Below, in pieces: positions 48,563 to 55,039 of a DNA stretch of 64,000 nt. This DNA comes from Citreicoccus inhibens (GTDB taxonomy: Bacteria > Myxococcota > Myxococcia > Myxococcales > Myxococcaceae). Position 1 is the first letter of the stretch; each line of letters starts with the position of its first letter. The notes beneath the pieces were generated by a model. That model saw only the letters and a program-made list of their open reading frames with translations, made no database searches and was not told the DNA's origin. The translations under genes were made by a program, and so were the position numbers. The stretch is taken from positions 62,001 to 126,000 of the forward strand of contig NZ_JAHNZT010000023.1 of the NCBI RefSeq assembly GCF_019039035.1, read 5' to 3'.

Positions 48563-51322
48563 ATGGCGGGGAAGCAGGCCGAGCCGCGGAATGTGGCCGG
48601 TCGCGCGGGAGGCGCACGTTGGGCCTTGAGCCTCGGGGTGCTGCTCGGCCTGGGATTCTGGGGGCTGTCGTGGCGCAAGCTCGGCGGCCAGCGCGATGCC
48701 CCCGAGCTGTGGCGCGCCTCGGAGCCCACCCGCCCGCTGGAGGCGCGGCTCAGCGTGCCCGCCGCGGATGTCTACCGCCGCTACGCGCCCCCGCACGGCC
48801 CCACGTCCGACACCATGCCCGTGCCCCTGCGCGCGCTCGCGCGACTGGAGTCCCGCGACGACTCCCTCGCCATCGCGGCGGCGTACCTCACGCATGGGGA
48901 CATCGAGCAGGCCCTCGCCCATCTGCGACGAACGCCGGCCTCGCTCGCGCGCGACAACGACCGCGCGGCCGCGGCCTTGATGGGCGGGCACCTGGACGAA
49001 GCCCTGACCCTGCTGGACGCCGTGCTGGAAGAGGAGCCGGGACATCCGCAGGCGCTGTGGAACCGCGGCCTCGTGCTGCGCGAGCTGGGTCTGCCGCTCA
49101 TGGCCGCCCAGTCCTTCGAGGCCCTGGCCGCCAAGGCGGAGCCCGGCTGGAGTGACGAGGCGCGACAACTCGCGACCCTGCTGCGCACCCGCCTGCGCGA
49201 GCGAGCCCAGGCCTGGAGCGTCACGCACGAGGCGCTCATCGCGCGCCTCACCCGCCCCAGCGCCCCCGTGCCCGTCGAGGCCGCGAGGCGATTCCCGGGA
49301 CATGCCCGCGAGCTCTTCTATGAACTCGTGCGCGCCGCCCCGGACGCGCGCGCGGTCCAGGCCCTGTTACCGCTCGCCGCCGAGTTGGATCATGTCTCGG
49401 GGACGGAGCTGCTCACCGAGCACGTGCGCGAGGCCGCGCAGCGGGACTTCTCGAAGCGGGGCGCGTTGGCGCGCGAGTACGCGCAGCTCGCGCTGGACAA
49501 GCACCCCTCCCCTGAGTCGTTCGTGAAGCGCCTGCGCGCCGCGGACGTGCCGGACCTGCTCCTCGGCGCGCTCCTCCACAATCCACTGCTCGCCGAGAAC
49601 CTCGAGGAGCTGGAGGCTCTCGTTCGCGACTCACGCGACCCGTGGCTACGCCTGCGCGTCGAGGAGGAAGCCGCGCGATTGGAGGACCTCGCGGGCCAGG
49701 GGCTGCGCGCCAGCCAGCGCCTGCGCGAGGCCCTGATGAGCTGCCGCGCGAGCAAGTTGCCCCTGCGGTGCCTGGACCTGATGGCGCAGATGAGCCTGCG
49801 CGCCACGACCGCGAACCGCCTGTCCGAAGCCGAGGAGTTCGCCCGCGCGAGCTGGACCGAAGCCACCGCTCTGGGAGAGTGGGAGCGCGAGGAGCTGGCG
49901 CTCTACATGCTCGGCAATGCCGCGCGCTTCCAGGTCCGAATCGCCGTGGCCCGCGCCGTCCTCTCCGAGGCGCTGGCGCGCGAGCCCGAGAGCTGCCGCA
50001 TGCGGACGGCACTGCACCGCATCCAGGCCTCGCTCGCACTGATGCGGCTGCGGCCCCGTGAGGCGCGTCGCGAGCTGGAGGACGCCCTCTCTTGCGGTCA
50101 ACCCCCGGGGTTGCTCGGCGCGTGGATCCTCGCGGACCTCGCGCGCTTGGAGCCTCGTCCCACCGATGAGCCTCGGCTGCGAGACGCGCTCGCTCGCGTC
50201 TCGCCCGCCAGTGAGTCCCCCGGTCGCCGGGTGCTGGCCACCCTCATCCAAGGCCGCTTCCAGGTCGAGCGCGACTGGCGCGCCGGACAAGCCACCCTGC
50301 GCCGCGCCATCTCCGAGGCCGAGCCACTGCTCGCCATCGACGCGGACGCCCGCGACGCGCGCGCCGTGGCCTATCAGACGCTGGCGGTGAGCGCGGGCAA
50401 GGCGGGCGCATTCTCCGAGGCCCTGTCGATCATCGCCGAAGGTCTGCACGTCCAGATCCCCGATGGCTGTGTGGTCGCCGCCTCGGTGGAAGCGGAGCGC
50501 ACCGTCGCCGTGGTGCGCGGCGCGGATGGTCAGGTGCGAGGCCACTTCGACGCCGCTCGCCGAGCGCCCTTGCCCGATGACCTCTCGGGACTGGTTCCCG
50601 CGGACCTCGTCTCACGCCTCCAGGATTGCACGCGTGTCGCAGTGCTCGCCGCGCCGCCCTTGGATACCCGCGCGGGACTCCTGCCCTCGCACCTCGCCTG
50701 GAGCTACCACGTGGGCCCCGGCGAGCGCGTGGCTGCGCCCGCTCGGCCGCCGCTGCGCCTCATCGTCGCCAACGTGGACACGCCGCCGTCGCTGCGGTTG
50801 CCCCGCCTCCCCGCGTGGGAGCCCGAGGCCCCCACCGTCCCCCACGCCGTCGAACTCACCGGCGCGCAGGCCACGCCCGAGCGCGTGCTCACCGACATGG
50901 AGGACGCCACGGACATCGAGATCCACGCACACGGCATGGTGGATCGCAGCCTCTCCGACGCCACCGTCATCGCGCTCGCACCGGACCCTGGCGGGCGCTA
51001 CGCCCTCACCGCCGAGGCCCTGCGCCGCATCCACCTGAACGGCGCCCCCATCGTCCTGCTGGGAGCCTGCGGCGCGGCGCGGCTGCCGCCCATCCTCCAC
51101 CAGACGTCCTCGCTCCCACAGGCCTTCGTCGCCTCGGGCGCGCGCGCCGTGTTCGCGGCCACGCAGGACATCCCGGATGCCTCGGGCCGCTTCTTCCGCG
51201 ACGTGCGCGAGCGAATCCTGGCCGGCGCCGAGCCCGCCCTCGCACTGCGCGATGAGCGGCTCCACTGGCTCCAGGAATCGCCCGACGCGCAGTGGGTGGA
51301 CACCGTGCTGCTGTACCAGTGA
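48563..51322 (+). CDS. membrane-anchored TPR protein with C-terminal CHAT protease domain
   Basis: A 919-residue protein. One membrane helix lies near the N-terminus (about 20-38, ALSLGVLLGLGFWGLSW). Residues about 85-560 are helical TPR-like repeats (IEQALAHLRRTPASLARD, LDEALTLLDAVLEEEPGHPQ, LWNRGLVLRELGLPLMAAQS). The C-terminal domain is a CHAT caspase-like peptidase: the dyad is H790 in IEIHAHG and C836 in LLGACGAA, followed by the family's FVASGARAVFAATQDIPD. CHAT-TPR proteins include separase-like and gasdermin-activating proteases; here the membrane anchor places the protease close to the membrane. The start at 48563 has GGAGG seven bases upstream. Ends seven bases from the convergent hydroxylase cluster. 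Confidence 0.87.
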   Translation: MAGKQAEPRNVAGRAGGARWALSLGVLLGLGFWGLSWRKLGGQRDAPELWRASEPTRPLEARLSVPAADVYRRYAPPHGPTSDTMPVPLRALARLESRDDSLAIAAAYLTHGDIEQALAHLRRTPASLARDNDRAAAALMGGHLDEALTLLDAVLEEEPGHPQALWNRGLVLRELGLPLMAAQSFEALAAKAEPGWSDEARQLATLLRTRLRERAQAWSVTHEALIARLTRPSAPVPVEAARRFPGHARELFYELVRAAPDARAVQALLPLAAELDHVSGTELLTEHVREAAQRDFSKRGALAREYAQLALDKHPSPESFVKRLRAADVPDLLLGALLHNPLLAENLEELEALVRDSRDPWLRLRVEEEAARLEDLAGQGLRASQRLREALMSCRASKLPLRCLDLMAQMSLRATTANRLSEAEEFARASWTEATALGEWEREELALYMLGNAARFQVRIAVARAVLSEALAREPESCRMRTALHRIQASLALMRLRPREARRELEDALSCGQPPGLLGAWILADLARLEPRPTDEPRLRDALARVSPASESPGRRVLATLIQGRFQVERDWRAGQATLRRAISEAEPLLAIDADARDARAVAYQTLAVSAGKAGAFSEALSIIAEGLHVQIPDGCVVAASVEAERTVAVVRGADGQVRGHFDAARRAPLPDDLSGLVPADLVSRLQDCTRVAVLAAPPLDTRAGLLPSHLAWSYHVGPGERVAAPARPPLRLIVANVDTPPSLRLPRLPAWEPEAPTVPHAVELTGAQATPERVLTDMEDATDIEIHAHGMVDRSLSDATVIALAPDPGGRYALTAEALRRIHLNGAPIVLLGACGAARLPPILHQTSSLPQAFVASGARAVFAATQDIPDASGRFFRDVRERILAGAEPALALRDERLHWLQESPDAQWVDTVLLYQ

Positions 51323-51329
51323 CGAAGTC

Positions 51330-52205
51330 CTACCCGGGAAACGGGGTGAGCTCGGGCTCTCCGTCCAGGTCGGCCCATCGGACATTGCGCGCCGGTGTCG
51401 CGAAGCCCTCGAACGAAATCCCCACGCAGGCCCCGGGCGCGTGAAGCGCGTACCACCACCCCACTGGAATCAAGAGCAGCTCGCCTGGAGCCAGCGCCAC
51501 CTCGAGTCGAAACGGGGCCCGCCCCTCGGGGTCAGCGCCCTGCACACGCATCCACTCGAACGCGGGGACCAGGCTGAGCTCGAGGCGGCCCTGCACCTGC
51601 CCGAGCAAGAGGTTGTGTCGCGAGACACGCAACGGCGCTTCGGCCCCACCCGGCGTCCACCACAACTTGGGCTCGGACGCGCGTGCCGGATCCGCCACGT
51701 AGCCGCGAGGCAAGGTCAGCGTGTCGCGCAGGGACGCGAGGCGCGCATCCTCGAACAAGGGAAGACAGACCGAGTCCGAACCCAGCAACTCCGCCACCTG
51801 CTCCACGGCCCACGCGGACGCACTCGGTCCCCCCGCCCACGCCTCGGGGCCCAGGACCACGGGCAGGTTCTGGAAGTAGTACCGCGCGAAGAACGCCTCG
51901 GGTGAAAGCGAAGCATGACGCGCGACCTGGGCCGGGGACGCGCCCTGCCGATGGAGGTCCGCATACACATCCAACAGGCCCTCCAGCTTGCGCTGCCGCT
52001 GCACCGCGCGCAGGGCGCCTTGGAGATGAGGCTCGGCCTGCTCCACCGCCACGGCCTCACGCGCGCGGGCCTCCGGCACGCCCGCGCCCATCAACTCCGC
52101 CACCAGGTCTTCCGGCGCGGTGCCCCGCAGCAGGTTCTCCACCAGCCACTGACGCCACTCCGGCGCCAACGCACGGCGCGAGTCACGAGAAACAACGTCT
52201 GTCAT
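51330..52205 (-). CDS. JmjC/cupin-like paralogue lacking metal ligands (copy A)
   Basis: A 291-residue protein homologous to the next two genes. The N-terminal helical domain (WLVENLLRGTAPEDLVAELM) and the double-stranded beta-helix (FFARYYFQNLPVVLGPEAW, GQVQGRLELSLVP, APGELLLIPVGWWYAL) are conserved. The H-x-D iron-binding site of the paralogues is replaced by SRHN, and the distal histidine of GWWH is tyrosine. It should therefore not bind Fe(II) in the usual way, yet the frame is intact and the fold residues are kept. It overlaps copy B by ATGA and may be a regulatory or substrate-binding partner. It is the last gene of the cluster. Confidence 0.8.
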   Translation of the reverse strand: MTDVVSRDSRRALAPEWRQWLVENLLRGTAPEDLVAELMGAGVPEARAREAVAVEQAEPHLQGALRAVQRQRKLEGLLDVYADLHRQGASPAQVARHASLSPEAFFARYYFQNLPVVLGPEAWAGGPSASAWAVEQVAELLGSDSVCLPLFEDARLASLRDTLTLPRGYVADPARASEPKLWWTPGGAEAPLRVSRHNLLLGQVQGRLELSLVPAFEWMRVQGADPEGRAPFRLEVALAPGELLLIPVGWWYALHAPGACVGISFEGFATPARNVRWADLDGEPELTPFPG

Positions 52206-53233
52206 CGGCCCACCTCGTCGGGCACCGGCCCCAGCCAATAGTCCCGCCAGTATGTGTTGCGCGAGGGCACATCGAAGTTCACGAATGTCACGGACAGGCT
52301 GACGTCCAGCGCGCGCACCGCGTGCCACCAACCCACCGGGAGGAGCAGCGCATCCCCGGGCCCCACCTCGCAGGTGGACAGGGTCGCCCGAGCGAACTCC
52401 GGGAAGCGCTCGACATCGGGCGACTCGATATCCACGTCGCTGTACAGGCCCTGCCCGTTCGCCAGCCGCGGCGTCTCCCAGGATGGAATCAGCCAGATTC
52501 GCTTGCGGCCGACCACCTGGCAGAAGAGGACGCTGAGGTGATCATGATGCAGGTTGGACAGAGTCCCCGCGGGACCGAACCACAGGTGCGCGCACTCGGG
52601 CGCGTGGACCGCGGGGTGGATGATGCCCGCGGGAGCAAGGACGTCTGACAACAGGCCGCGAAACGGCTCACGTTGGAACAGGCTGTTGCGCGCCACCAGA
52701 TAGACGTCATTCGTCGGGCCCTCGCGCAGGCGCGCGATGAACTCACCGAAGGGAACCGTGCGGCGCAGTCGCTCGGCATGGAGATCCGGCGAGGGCTCCG
52801 CGTCTCGGCCGGACATCACCTCCACGGGGGCATCACCGAAGCGCGAGCGCAGGCCCTCCAACGTCCAACGGGTCAGGGCGGGCCAATCCTCCAACCAGCC
52901 CTCGACGATGACCGGCCGGTTGCGAAAGTAATAGCGCTCGAAGAATTCCTCTCGTGACAGCCCGCGACGCCGCTCCACCTCGGCCCCCGCTCCCGACTGG
53001 GAATGCAACACCGAGCGAGTCCTCAACCAACTCTCCACGCGCCCACCCTGCGAGGCTCGCGCCCGAGCGACAGACAGAGAGGGGTGAGCCATGGCTTCGC
53101 GAACCATCTCGACCGCGACAGAACCCGTCAGACCGGCCTCGGACAATCGAGCCACCAGACGTTCTGCTGACACACCTCGCGCGAGGTTCTCCGCGACCCA
53201 GGCCCGTCGCGCAAGGCCCATTGTTTCATTCAC
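52202..53233 (-). CDS. JmjC/cupin-8 Fe(II)/2-oxoglutarate hydroxylase-like protein (copy B)
   Basis: A 343-residue protein with an N-terminal three-helix domain (WVAENLARGVSAERLVARL) seen in other bacterial 2-oxoglutarate oxygenases, then a cupin-8/JmjC domain. The H-x-D motif is in NLHHDHLSVLFCQVVGRK and the distal histidine in LLPVGWWHAVRALDVSLSV. The FRNRPVIVEGWLEDWPA entry strand is typical. JmjC hydroxylases of this kind modify Asn, Asp, His, Arg or Lys of proteins or tRNA wybutosine. Start is a GTG at 53233; an ATG four codons later is possible. It overlaps copy A (ATGA) and follows copy C by 217 bases. Confidence 0.85.
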   Translation of the reverse strand: MNETMGLARRAWVAENLARGVSAERLVARLSEAGLTGSVAVEMVREAMAHPSLSVARARASQGGRVESWLRTRSVLHSQSGAGAEVERRRGLSREEFFERYYFRNRPVIVEGWLEDWPALTRWTLEGLRSRFGDAPVEVMSGRDAEPSPDLHAERLRRTVPFGEFIARLREGPTNDVYLVARNSLFQREPFRGLLSDVLAPAGIIHPAVHAPECAHLWFGPAGTLSNLHHDHLSVLFCQVVGRKRIWLIPSWETPRLANGQGLYSDVDIESPDVERFPEFARATLSTCEVGPGDALLLPVGWWHAVRALDVSLSVTFVNFDVPSRNTYWRDYWLGPVPDEVGR

Positions 53234-53296
53234 AAACAGCCCGCATCCGGTGCGTTATACAGCCAGGGCCTGTCTCCCTGTCGACGAGGGCAGTTC

Positions 53297-53440
53297 ATGA
53301 GTCCGTCTTCGAGTCTCCCCATCATCGTCCCCAACCCATCGCCCGCGCCCATGCGTCCGCACGAGGCACCGAGCGCCCTGCCCCATCGGCCCCCGCCGAC
53401 CCGGCCGCCATCGACGCCGCCGTTCCCTCCCGGACCATGA
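53297..53440 (+). CDS. 47-residue proline-rich peptide inside the JmjC cluster
   Basis: An open frame too short for usual annotation. The ATG at 53297 has GAGGG about six bases upstream (GACGAGGGCAGTTCATG), and TTATAC at 53255-53260 could be a -10 box. The peptide starts MSPSSSLPIIVPNPSPAP and ends STPPFPPGP; 19 of 47 residues are proline, with four arginines and two histidines. It runs against the two flanking hydroxylase genes and diverges from the start of copy B, so it occupies a regulatory slot instead of being an accident at a gene end. Whether it is a substrate, a leader peptide or chance is open. Pro-rich frames arise easily in GC-rich DNA, which limits confidence. Confidence 0.35.
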   Translation: MSPSSSLPIIVPNPSPAPMRPHEAPSALPHRPPPTRPPSTPPFPPGP

Positions 53441-53450
53441 CGTCGAGCAC

Positions 53451-54440
53451 TCACGCCGCGAAACGCCACCACGTGTTGCCACCAGGGACGTCGAGTTCCT
53501 GAAACGTCACCGAGACACTGACGTCGAGCGCGTGGACCTGATGCCACCACCCGGCGGGGATGAGCAACATCTCGCCGGGCTCGACGACAGCCTCGTGAAT
53601 GTGCGCTTTCTCGAACGCGGGGAAGCCCACCGGGTCCGGATGCTCAGCGTCCACTTCGCTCCAGACGGAATGGTGGTTGTAGACGCGCTCCGTCTGAAAT
53701 GAAGGCACGAGCCAGAACCGCTTGCGCCCGGACACCTGTCCGAACAACACCGAGCCCAGGTCATGGTGCAGCGCGGTCCGAGTGCCCGCGGGGCCGATCC
53801 ACAGCTTGAATGCCCCATGCGCGGACGAGGGCCGCAGGAACCCCGTCGGGAAGCGCAGGTCATCGCGCAGCGACTGCAACTCCTGGCGCTCCAGCGCGAA
53901 GTTGCGCGCGGTCAGGTACAGGTCATTCGTCGGGCCCCCCTCCAGGATGCGGCGGATGAAATCCCCCAGCCGCATCCGCGTGCGACATGGCTCGGGCTCC
54001 AGGTCGTGATCCGCACGAGCCTCGCGGCCCATCATCACCTCCACCTCCACATCGCCATGCGAGCGCATCAACGCGTGAGGCTGCCAGCGCGCCATCAACG
54101 GCCAGTCCTCCATGAAGCCCGTGAGGATGACGGGCCGGTGCGGCAGATAGAACCGCTCGAGGAACTCGGGCGCGGAGAGGCCGCGGACCCGCTCCACGCG
54201 GGAGCGCGCTCCCGCCTGCCGGGACAGCACGGAGCGCAGGTCCATCAACGCGCGAAGCTCGCGCCCCAGTCGGCTCCGCTCCGAGGCCGCGAGCACCGCG
54301 GGATGTACCCGCGCCGCCGCCGCCGCCGCCCGCGCGACGGAGACCTCTGTCCCTCGGCGCACCAGCTCGCGAACGAGCACGTCTGCGTCCACGCCCCGGC
54401 TGAGGTTCTCCGCCAGCCAGACTCGAAGTGCGTCGTTCAT
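53451..54440 (-). CDS. JmjC/cupin-8 Fe(II)/2-oxoglutarate hydroxylase-like protein (copy C)
   Basis: A 329-residue paralogue with the same plan: N-terminal helical domain (VWLAENLSRGVDADVLVREL), then a JmjC/cupin-8 fold. The H-x-D site is in TALHHDLGSVLFGQVSGRKR and the distal histidine in LIPAGWWHQVHALDVSVSV. KRFWLVPSFQTERVYNHHS holds the likely 2-oxoglutarate-contacting strand. The YLPHRPVILTGFMEDWPL segment matches copy B. It is the promoter-proximal copy and lies divergent from the secreted Cys-repeat gene, with 185 bases between starts. Start at ATG 54440; the 99 in-frame codons upstream are low complexity. Confidence 0.85.
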   Translation of the reverse strand: MNDALRVWLAENLSRGVDADVLVRELVRRGTEVSVARAAAAAARVHPAVLAASERSRLGRELRALMDLRSVLSRQAGARSRVERVRGLSAPEFLERFYLPHRPVILTGFMEDWPLMARWQPHALMRSHGDVEVEVMMGREARADHDLEPEPCRTRMRLGDFIRRILEGGPTNDLYLTARNFALERQELQSLRDDLRFPTGFLRPSSAHGAFKLWIGPAGTRTALHHDLGSVLFGQVSGRKRFWLVPSFQTERVYNHHSVWSEVDAEHPDPVGFPAFEKAHIHEAVVEPGEMLLIPAGWWHQVHALDVSVSVTFQELDVPGGNTWWRFAA

Positions 54441-54625
54441 GGGGCGGCCTCTCGTGCGTGCTCGGCCCGGGCACTGTAGGGCTCGGCCGAGGACAGGCAC
54501 CAGGGCACCGAGCGCCCCATCTCGAGCTCCCCGTGGAACAACCGAGACGGGCCGGCCAGACGGGCGACCGCGCCCCCGTGAACGAGGGGCAGCGCACGAC
54601 CTACGTTCAGTCCAGGAGGTGCGCG

Positions 54626-55039
54626 ATGGCGCCACGAGACAGCCGGTGGCAGCGCCTCCGGAGCGCGAGCGGGTGGGTCTCCCTGGGGAGCGCCCTGGTG
54701 CTCGGCGTTCCGGCGGTGAGTCGAGCCGAGGAGCCACCGCAGCTCTCCTGCTTCGAGGCGGCGAGACAAGGCGGGCTGGTGAGCGACACCACGGCCTCCC
54801 AACTGTGCCAGGGCGCCAGCTCCGAGGCCCCCGCGCGCTGCTTCCTGCGCGTCCAGCACCAGAGCTTCCTCGACGAGCCCCAATCGTTGCAGCTGTGCCA
54901 GTACGCCTCGCCGCGAGACGACCCCGCGAGCTGTTACCTGCGCACCAAGGCGCAGACGTTCTTGGACGAGGCTCGAATCGTCCAGCTCTGCCAGCCTCCC
55001 GTCACCCAGCTCCTGCAACACTTTCCCTACGGCCCGTGA
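54626..55039 (+). CDS. secreted cysteine-repeat protein
   Basis: A 137-residue exported protein with a signal peptide (SLGSALVLGVPAVSRAEE). The mature 95 residues are tandem units of about 36 residues: SCFEAARQGGLVSDTTASQL with CQGASSEAPARCFLR, then FLDEPQSLQLCQYASPRDDP with ASCYLR, then FLDEARIVQLCQPP. Cysteines recur as C-F/Y-L-R and L-C-Q, so disulfide-linked helical hairpins are likely. AGGAGGT lies seven bases before the ATG, the best ribosome binding site in the window. The family seems confined to myxobacteria; function unknown. It shares an intergenic region with the JmjC cluster, so co-regulation is possible. Confidence 0.72.
   Translation: MAPRDSRWQRLRSASGWVSLGSALVLGVPAVSRAEEPPQLSCFEAARQGGLVSDTTASQLCQGASSEAPARCFLRVQHQSFLDEPQSLQLCQYASPRDDPASCYLRTKAQTFLDEARIVQLCQPPVTQLLQHFPYGP

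Follow-up and report, generated by a model that had tools for sequence, protein, structure and literature searches.

Small proline-rich peptide genes paired with JmjC/Cupin_8 genes in Citreicoccus inhibens and other bacteria, a candidate peptide hydroxylation system

A cluster of three JmjC/Cupin_8 genes and a mini-gene

We analyzed a window of 64,000 nucleotides from Citreicoccus inhibens (Myxococcaceae; assembly GCF_019039035.1, contig NZ_JAHNZT010000023.1, positions 62,001 to 126,000 of the forward strand), in which three paralogous JmjC/Cupin_8 genes, named A, B and C, lie together on one strand and a very short open reading frame (ORF) for a proline-rich peptide is set between A and B on the other. 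The host genome measures 9.05 Mb, and the contig with the cluster is G000:C39 in our genome set. In window coordinates, the cluster comprises the following features.

51330-52205, minus strand: copy C, same family, predicted pseudoenzyme, metal ligands replaced here by R, S and Y
52202-53233, minus strand: copy B, JmjC/Cupin_8 (Cupin_8 2.9e-41), HxD...H intact, start at GTG 53233 or ATG 53221
53255-53260, both strands: symmetric TTATAC/GTATAA box, candidate -10 element for the peptide gene (plus) and B (minus)
53286-53290, plus strand: GAGGG, a Shine-Dalgarno (SD)-like site 6 nucleotides before ATG 53297
53297-53440, plus strand: gene for a 47-residue Pro-rich peptide with 19 prolines (MSPSSSLPIIVPNPSPAPMRPHEAPSALPHRPPPTRPPSTPPFPPGP; ‘VPNP peptide’), proposed substrate
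53324-53338, plus strand: IVPNP motif, peptide residues 10-14
53396-53425, plus strand: C-terminal PTRPPSTPPF element (consensus PTPPPxTPPL), proposed docking element
53451-54440, minus strand: copy A, JmjC/Cupin_8 (Cupin_8 1.2e-47), HxD...H intact, N-terminal helical domain

Against the Pfam model PF13621 (Cupin_8), A and B scored 163.4 and 142.5 bits, both above the curated cut-off of 27.4, and C gave only a weak match of 19.5 bits, below it. In pairwise comparison with A, B is 48% identical and C 36%; C directly follows B, its start overlapping the B stop (ATGA). B matched JMJD5 by sequence (phmmer E 1.3e-33), and human JMJD5 was the best Protein Data Bank match of an AlphaFold2 model of A in Foldseek (E 6.0e-21, 31% identity, template-modeling score on the target 0.84). 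This model (predicted local distance difference test, pLDDT, 91.7) places N-terminal helices at residues 3-14, 19-28, 33-44 and 47-75, followed by the JmjC fold, and a model of C (pLDDT 80) has the same layout of N-terminal helical domain and JmjC fold. A preliminary description of this DNA, made from its letters alone, had proposed three paralogous JmjC/Cupin_8-type genes with a common N-terminal helical domain that arose by local duplication. The three paralogues, all on the minus strand, were borne out, as was the helical domain by the model of A. Duplication also stands but is ancient: in a tree without a settled root, the A genes of all genera form one clade, as do the B genes and the C genes, so the triplication predates the genera.

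The HxD...H triad expected to bind the metal was present in all A genes (40/40), all B genes (42/42) and all eight genes counted of a fourth paralogue, D, described below, and absent from 41 of 41 C genes, although their fold and N-terminal domain persist. Without this metal site, C would be not a hydroxylase but a pseudoenzyme; judged by these residues, only A and B can be enzymes and C is a conserved, catalytically dead partner, so that the earlier label of three hydroxylase-like copies holds for A and B and fails for C. One gene, L100:9334-10278, was first labeled D, among nine D genes of the triad count, and was reassigned to the C position of genome G063. It retains HxD...H and is the basal branch of the C clade, which dates the loss: C most likely lost its metal site after the split from this G063 copy. 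The G063 copy itself has the appearance of an evolutionary intermediate from before C turned into a pseudoenzyme.

Conservation and distribution of the peptide gene

The mini-ORF occupies the A-B gap (53234-53450), where it converges on A and diverges from B. Its length, 19 prolines, GAGGG site and TTATAC box are exactly as first described, and so is its position within the cluster on the opposite strand; the gap had been given as that between C and B and is the A-B gap, possibly because the earlier labels run in reverse. In comparison with the sister species G001, 19 of 144 bases differ, 16 of them at codon position 3 (binomial P = 7e-6), with 15 synonymous and three nonsynonymous codon changes. 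This is the synonymous bias that had been proposed as a check in relatives, but an opposite-strand, Gly-rich frame of 74 residues has the same wobble phase, so the third-position bias alone cannot choose the strand.

The strand was settled by 40 loci from seven genera that carry both A and B. An intact homologue of 42-65 residues with the IVPNP motif and a PTPPPxTPPL tail was found in the same place and on the same strand in all 40, always on the strand opposite to B with the two start codons 48-126 nucleotides apart, and an SD-like site precedes its ATG in 39. The Pro-rich frame is open in 40/40 loci, whereas the three antisense frames are open in no more than 25-26 each. Loss or frameshift of the ORF where the hydroxylases persist, named beforehand as an outcome that would speak against it, was seen at none of these loci. 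Matches to a profile of the peptide reach E 9e-18, VP[ND]P is encoded by 24 different nucleotide strings, and pooled pN/pS ratios in three genera were 0.07, 0.53 and 0.45 for the peptide and 0.23, 0.40 and 0.38 for gene A. By these conservation patterns, the mini-ORF is a real, conserved gene. Two other explanations were rejected: an antisense shadow of the Gly-rich frame, which overlaps the A stop and the B start and is interrupted by stops in many relatives, and a non-coding element or promoter as the sole explanation, which is ruled out by the codon bias, the varied motif codons and the SD sites.

Homologues include a Corallococcus type (MTPPENSYKIVPNPNPPCDPAQEDLSRKRIPEPPAPTPPPSTPPLPETPKDENLNG) and a Myxococcus type (MTTSKDPAPKIVPNPPPNPATRIAPRIVPNPGGHSAPPEERAVPTPPPTTPPLEK). 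VPNP occurs in at least two copies in 18 peptides and in three copies in one (L104). The IVPNP motif contains no Arg, and Arg at other peptide positions is not conserved. The context of the TTATAC box, GTGCGwTATAyM, is conserved in g1, g23 and g16 and not recognizable in g26; the box may be a promoter element shared by the peptide gene and B.

The peptide profile had exactly one match per genome in 40 of 96 genomes of the family, always in the A-B gap, and no match in 55 others. A-type JmjC genes were found in 41 genomes, namely, the same 40 and G078, where the cluster is split at a contig edge that holds a partial peptide. Every A-type gene is paired with a peptide (partial in G078), a co-occurrence that is not independent of linkage, as the genes are adjacent. 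Named carriers include Myxococcus, Pyxidicoccus, Corallococcus and Hyalangium. Searched across the whole phylum, the VPNP profile gave one extra match, weak and partial (G049, E 6e-5).

Paralogue D and pairings in distant lineages

The same genome carries the fourth JmjC paralogue elsewhere, with a peptide gene of its own.

L038:5964-6992, plus strand: JmjC paralogue D (G000:C101:234002-234973)
L038:5662-5850, minus strand: D peptide, divergent from D, with a VKxxYVxC motif and a PxPPPxxPPL tail

A divergent peptide gene, always on the opposite strand and mostly with a clear SD site such as AGGAG, was present at 45 of 49 D loci; one of the four loci without it (L284) is cut by a contig end. 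The D-peptide consensus runs from MTPG... through PHVKxxYVxC and a basic stretch to PLPPPxxPPL. Its profile found one match beside D in each of 46 family genomes and one weak extra match in G070, and 16 of the 22 differences in an own-genus pair fall at codon position 3. The A-B and D peptides align in the tail only (hhalign E 3.6e-5, where the significance, as for the other tail similarities given here, is inflated by the low complexity of Pro-rich sequence). One genome thus holds two JmjC loci whose peptides differ in motif and have a common tail, and by its gene layout, the D locus is an independent replicate of the JmjC-peptide pairing. No VPNP peptides were found beside D or the distant JmjC genes considered next, where other motifs occur instead.

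Outside the family, D-clade JmjC genes of Micromonosporaceae are directly preceded by a PAHVKxxYVxC peptide. The ORF directly before the JmjC gene of Micromonospora rubida (L209:5708-5960) contains three tandem FPAHVKxxYVxC units and resembles a multi-core precursor, and Catellatospora has a second VKxxYVxC ORF about 3 kb beyond its JmjC gene (L195:9942), with no second JmjC gene seen in that stretch. In Sorangium, Sandaracinaceae and other Myxococcota, JmjC genes have directly before them, on the same strand, genes for lipoprotein-type proteins with (I/V/T)PPMPPP repeats. The n-region of the signal peptide of these repeat lipoproteins carries LTPxPxxPPLVRR, a stretch similar to the small-peptide tails (hhalign E 8e-5 and 4e-4). 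Directly before JmjC, Sorangium (L214, L216, L222 and L226) has ORFs of the lipoprotein type in which IIPPMPPPMPPP is repeated many times, and further such ORFs are placed likewise in L190, L191, L200, L237 and L243. Other kinds of repeat also lie directly before JmjC, PEDALLPTAAKPD in Bradyrhizobium and PEPGVPPVGP in Nocardioides and Nitrospira (L205:5626-5934; L210; L217).

A matrix trained solely on the Myxococcaceae tails scored above the 99% control quantile upstream of 12 of 51 distant JmjC genes, and ten of these 12 exceed the highest of 385 control windows. An ORF with a repeated 5-mer lies in the 1 kb upstream of 26 of the 51 versus 31 of 289 control windows (p = 4e-10), the control windows being drawn from the same contigs and not matched gene for gene. 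These distant pairings are suggestive, the Pro-rich sequences compared being of low complexity.

Proposed roles, rival explanations and neighboring genes

A partnership between the JmjC genes and the peptide genes is strongly supported by comparative sequence evidence. The initial idea, a hydroxylase cluster that encodes its own small peptide, rested at that time on position only and gains support from the genome distribution that the peptide has in common with A, from the recurrence of the pairing at D and from the Pro-rich repeat peptides with a similar sequence element beside more distant JmjC genes. We go further and infer a substrate role for the peptide, docking by its tail, the modified residue and a role for C. 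In the reading that we prefer, with a probability of roughly two in three, A and B are JmjC hydroxylases and the mini-gene encodes their dedicated substrate, together forming an enzyme-substrate cassette. A and B would be Fe(II)/2-oxoglutarate-dependent enzymes (Cupin_8, JMJD5-like), and the divergent mini-gene would yield a short, probably unstructured peptide of two parts, the docking element PTPPPxTPPL, bound by the enzyme complex, and at least one copy of the target motif IVPNP, where hydroxylation would fall on Asn or on a flanking Pro. The corresponding residue in the D system is possibly Lys or Asn of VKxxYVxC. C, dead but with fold and N-terminal domain kept, would probably be a binding or scaffolding partner for B or the peptide, and the modified product may be a complete protein, a peptide released by processing or a signal.

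Several observations weigh against the cassette. A gene partnership is equally expected of a binding partner or inhibitor, and the docking function of the tail is proposed from similarity over a short stretch of Pro-rich sequence (hhalign E 4e-5 to 4e-4). Three of the 49 D loci are uncut by contig ends and have no recognizable peptide, and many JmjC genes of Pseudomonadota and Cyanobacteriota are without an evident one. Moreover, G088, a metagenome-assembled genome, contains B and C with neither A nor the peptide, and B and C may have another job.

Further genes recur around both loci, among them the following at the A-B-C cluster.

48563-51322, plus strand: TPR-CHAT-like gene with an N-terminal hydrophobic segment, convergent with C

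This gene is present in 36 of the 40 A+B loci and missing from four that keep the peptide; CHAT His and Cys motifs (HAHG, L[GA]AC) are found in 42 of 43 full-length copies. D likewise lies between a TPR-CHAT gene (Pfam CHAT 3.8e-16) and a gene for an ECF sigma factor, the latter followed by one for a zf-HC2/TPR protein. Because it is not obligatory, the TPR-CHAT protein was kept out of the core mechanism.

Such neighbors enter into the two rival accounts that retain the gene partnership. The better of them, which we hold to be unlikely, gives the peptide a regulatory, adaptor or inhibitory role toward the JmjC proteins, with the tail binding the enzyme or C and thereby tuning activity or targeting it to another protein, for example, the TPR-CHAT neighbor. 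The tail is indeed the only part common to A-B and D peptides, C is retained though dead, as expected of a binding module, and TPR-CHAT genes recur beside both types of locus. Yet four peptide-bearing A+B loci do without TPR-CHAT, and the central motif is well conserved and multiplied (three VKxxYVxC in M. rubida, three VPNP in L104, many PPMPPP in Sorangium), a pattern more in keeping with repeated targets of modification than with a regulator acting at one site.

Somewhat less probable again is a strict pathway for a ribosomally synthesized and post-translationally modified peptide (RiPP), in which the tail or signal-peptide element would be leader-like, the motif would be the core and the modified core would be cut out, perhaps by the CHAT protease, and exported as a natural product or signal. 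JmjC/cupin hydroxylases do occur in RiPP pathways (PMC12257519, PMC12707348), a conserved putative precursor gene stands beside a candidate modifying enzyme at A-B and D loci, and the tandem cores would suit such a pathway, as would the gene for a CHAT-type protease, with its His and Cys motifs, that accompanies most clusters. Against this, no leader/core boundary typical of precursors and no cleavage site is evident in the peptides, the recognition element of the Myxococcaceae peptides is C-terminal, the CHAT gene is not obligatory and the neighbors scanned with Pfam yielded no recognized radical SAM, MNIO or ABC transporter family. A non-coding origin of the ORF, as an antisense shadow of the Gly-rich ORF or of a conserved regulatory region, is scarcely credible with the opposite frames broken in 14-15 of 40 loci, even if the sister-species bias by itself is compatible with it.

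Relative to known systems, the A and B proteins resemble JMJD5/KDM8 (an arginyl C-3 hydroxylase; PMC5862942), JMJD7, JMJD6, FIH and TYW5 in JmjC fold and HxD...H triad. They differ from this group in being bacterial, encoded beside a dedicated small peptide and accompanied by a dead paralogue, and in their N-terminal helical domain. In biphenomycin-type RiPP clusters, a JmjC/cupin-like hydroxylase is likewise encoded with a ribosomal precursor peptide: PbsQ and BpmG (PMC12257519) and BipG (PMC12707348) hydroxylate ornithine in biphenomycin precursors. Those clusters combine an FRF-motif peptide with an MNIO, a B12-radical SAM enzyme, an arginase and a protease, whereas the cassettes described here consist of JmjC and peptide, usually without other recognized modifying enzymes, and their motifs are IVPNP, VKxxYVxC or PPMPPP. 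No FRF was found in any peptide, and no MNIO or radical SAM gene in the window neighborhood scanned. YcfD/RIOX-type ribosomal oxygenases are also bacterial cupin/JmjC hydroxylases with a protein substrate (PMC4295552); their substrates are unlinked ribosomal proteins, whereas the candidate substrate here is a linked, taxon-specific peptide. TPR-CHAT proteases, and the ECF sigma factor with its zf-HC2/TPR protein, are recurrent neighbors of the A-B-C and D loci. In the literature searched, CHAT proteins were nowhere linked to JmjC enzymes, and neither the motifs nor JmjC-peptide pairing was mentioned, which is weak evidence of novelty, as most subscription journals lie outside its coverage.

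A broader proposal, which we consider evenly poised, is a general, undescribed bacterial post-translational modification system: an N-terminally extended JmjC clade in Myxococcota and Actinomycetota, possibly also in Bradyrhizobium, Nocardioides and others, in which each member would have a cognate peptide or lipoprotein combining a common docking element, LTPxPxxPPL, with a target motif that is specific to the lineage and often repeated, and in Myxococcaceae also a conserved dead partner. JmjC enzymes acting on ribosomal peptides are already known; once backed by biochemistry, the several motif types, the common docking element and the dead partner could warrant a stronger claim. Most bacterial Cupin_8/JmjC proteins are so far without a known substrate, and here the genome nominates cognate substrates for a whole clade of them, several with tandem target motifs. 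If true, the system would give bacteria a counterpart of dedicated prolyl/asparaginyl hydroxylation, would supply hydroxylases to peptide engineering and would add a new family of very small proteins, and the conserved dead paralogue C is a test case for how pseudo-oxygenases work.

Some minor observations concern the surrounding genes. No PADLOC model of an anti-phage defense system matched A, B, C, the two TPR-CHAT proteins or the zf-HC2/TPR protein. The ECF sigma factor gene and the following gene for the anti-sigma-like zf-HC2/TPR protein (L038:4143-5764), beside D and TPR-CHAT, possibly form a regulated-proteolysis unit. In Myxococcus (L083:6903-8629) and G063 (L100:4698-6520), TPR-CHAT is followed by two conserved genes without a Pfam match (about 446 and 110-136 residues), which are absent in the window. 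A small, secreted-looking Cys protein (SCxxAxQGGL...LC), without a Pfam match, is encoded divergently from A at 54428-55039 on the plus strand and also occurs in Myxococcus (L083:12024-12461).

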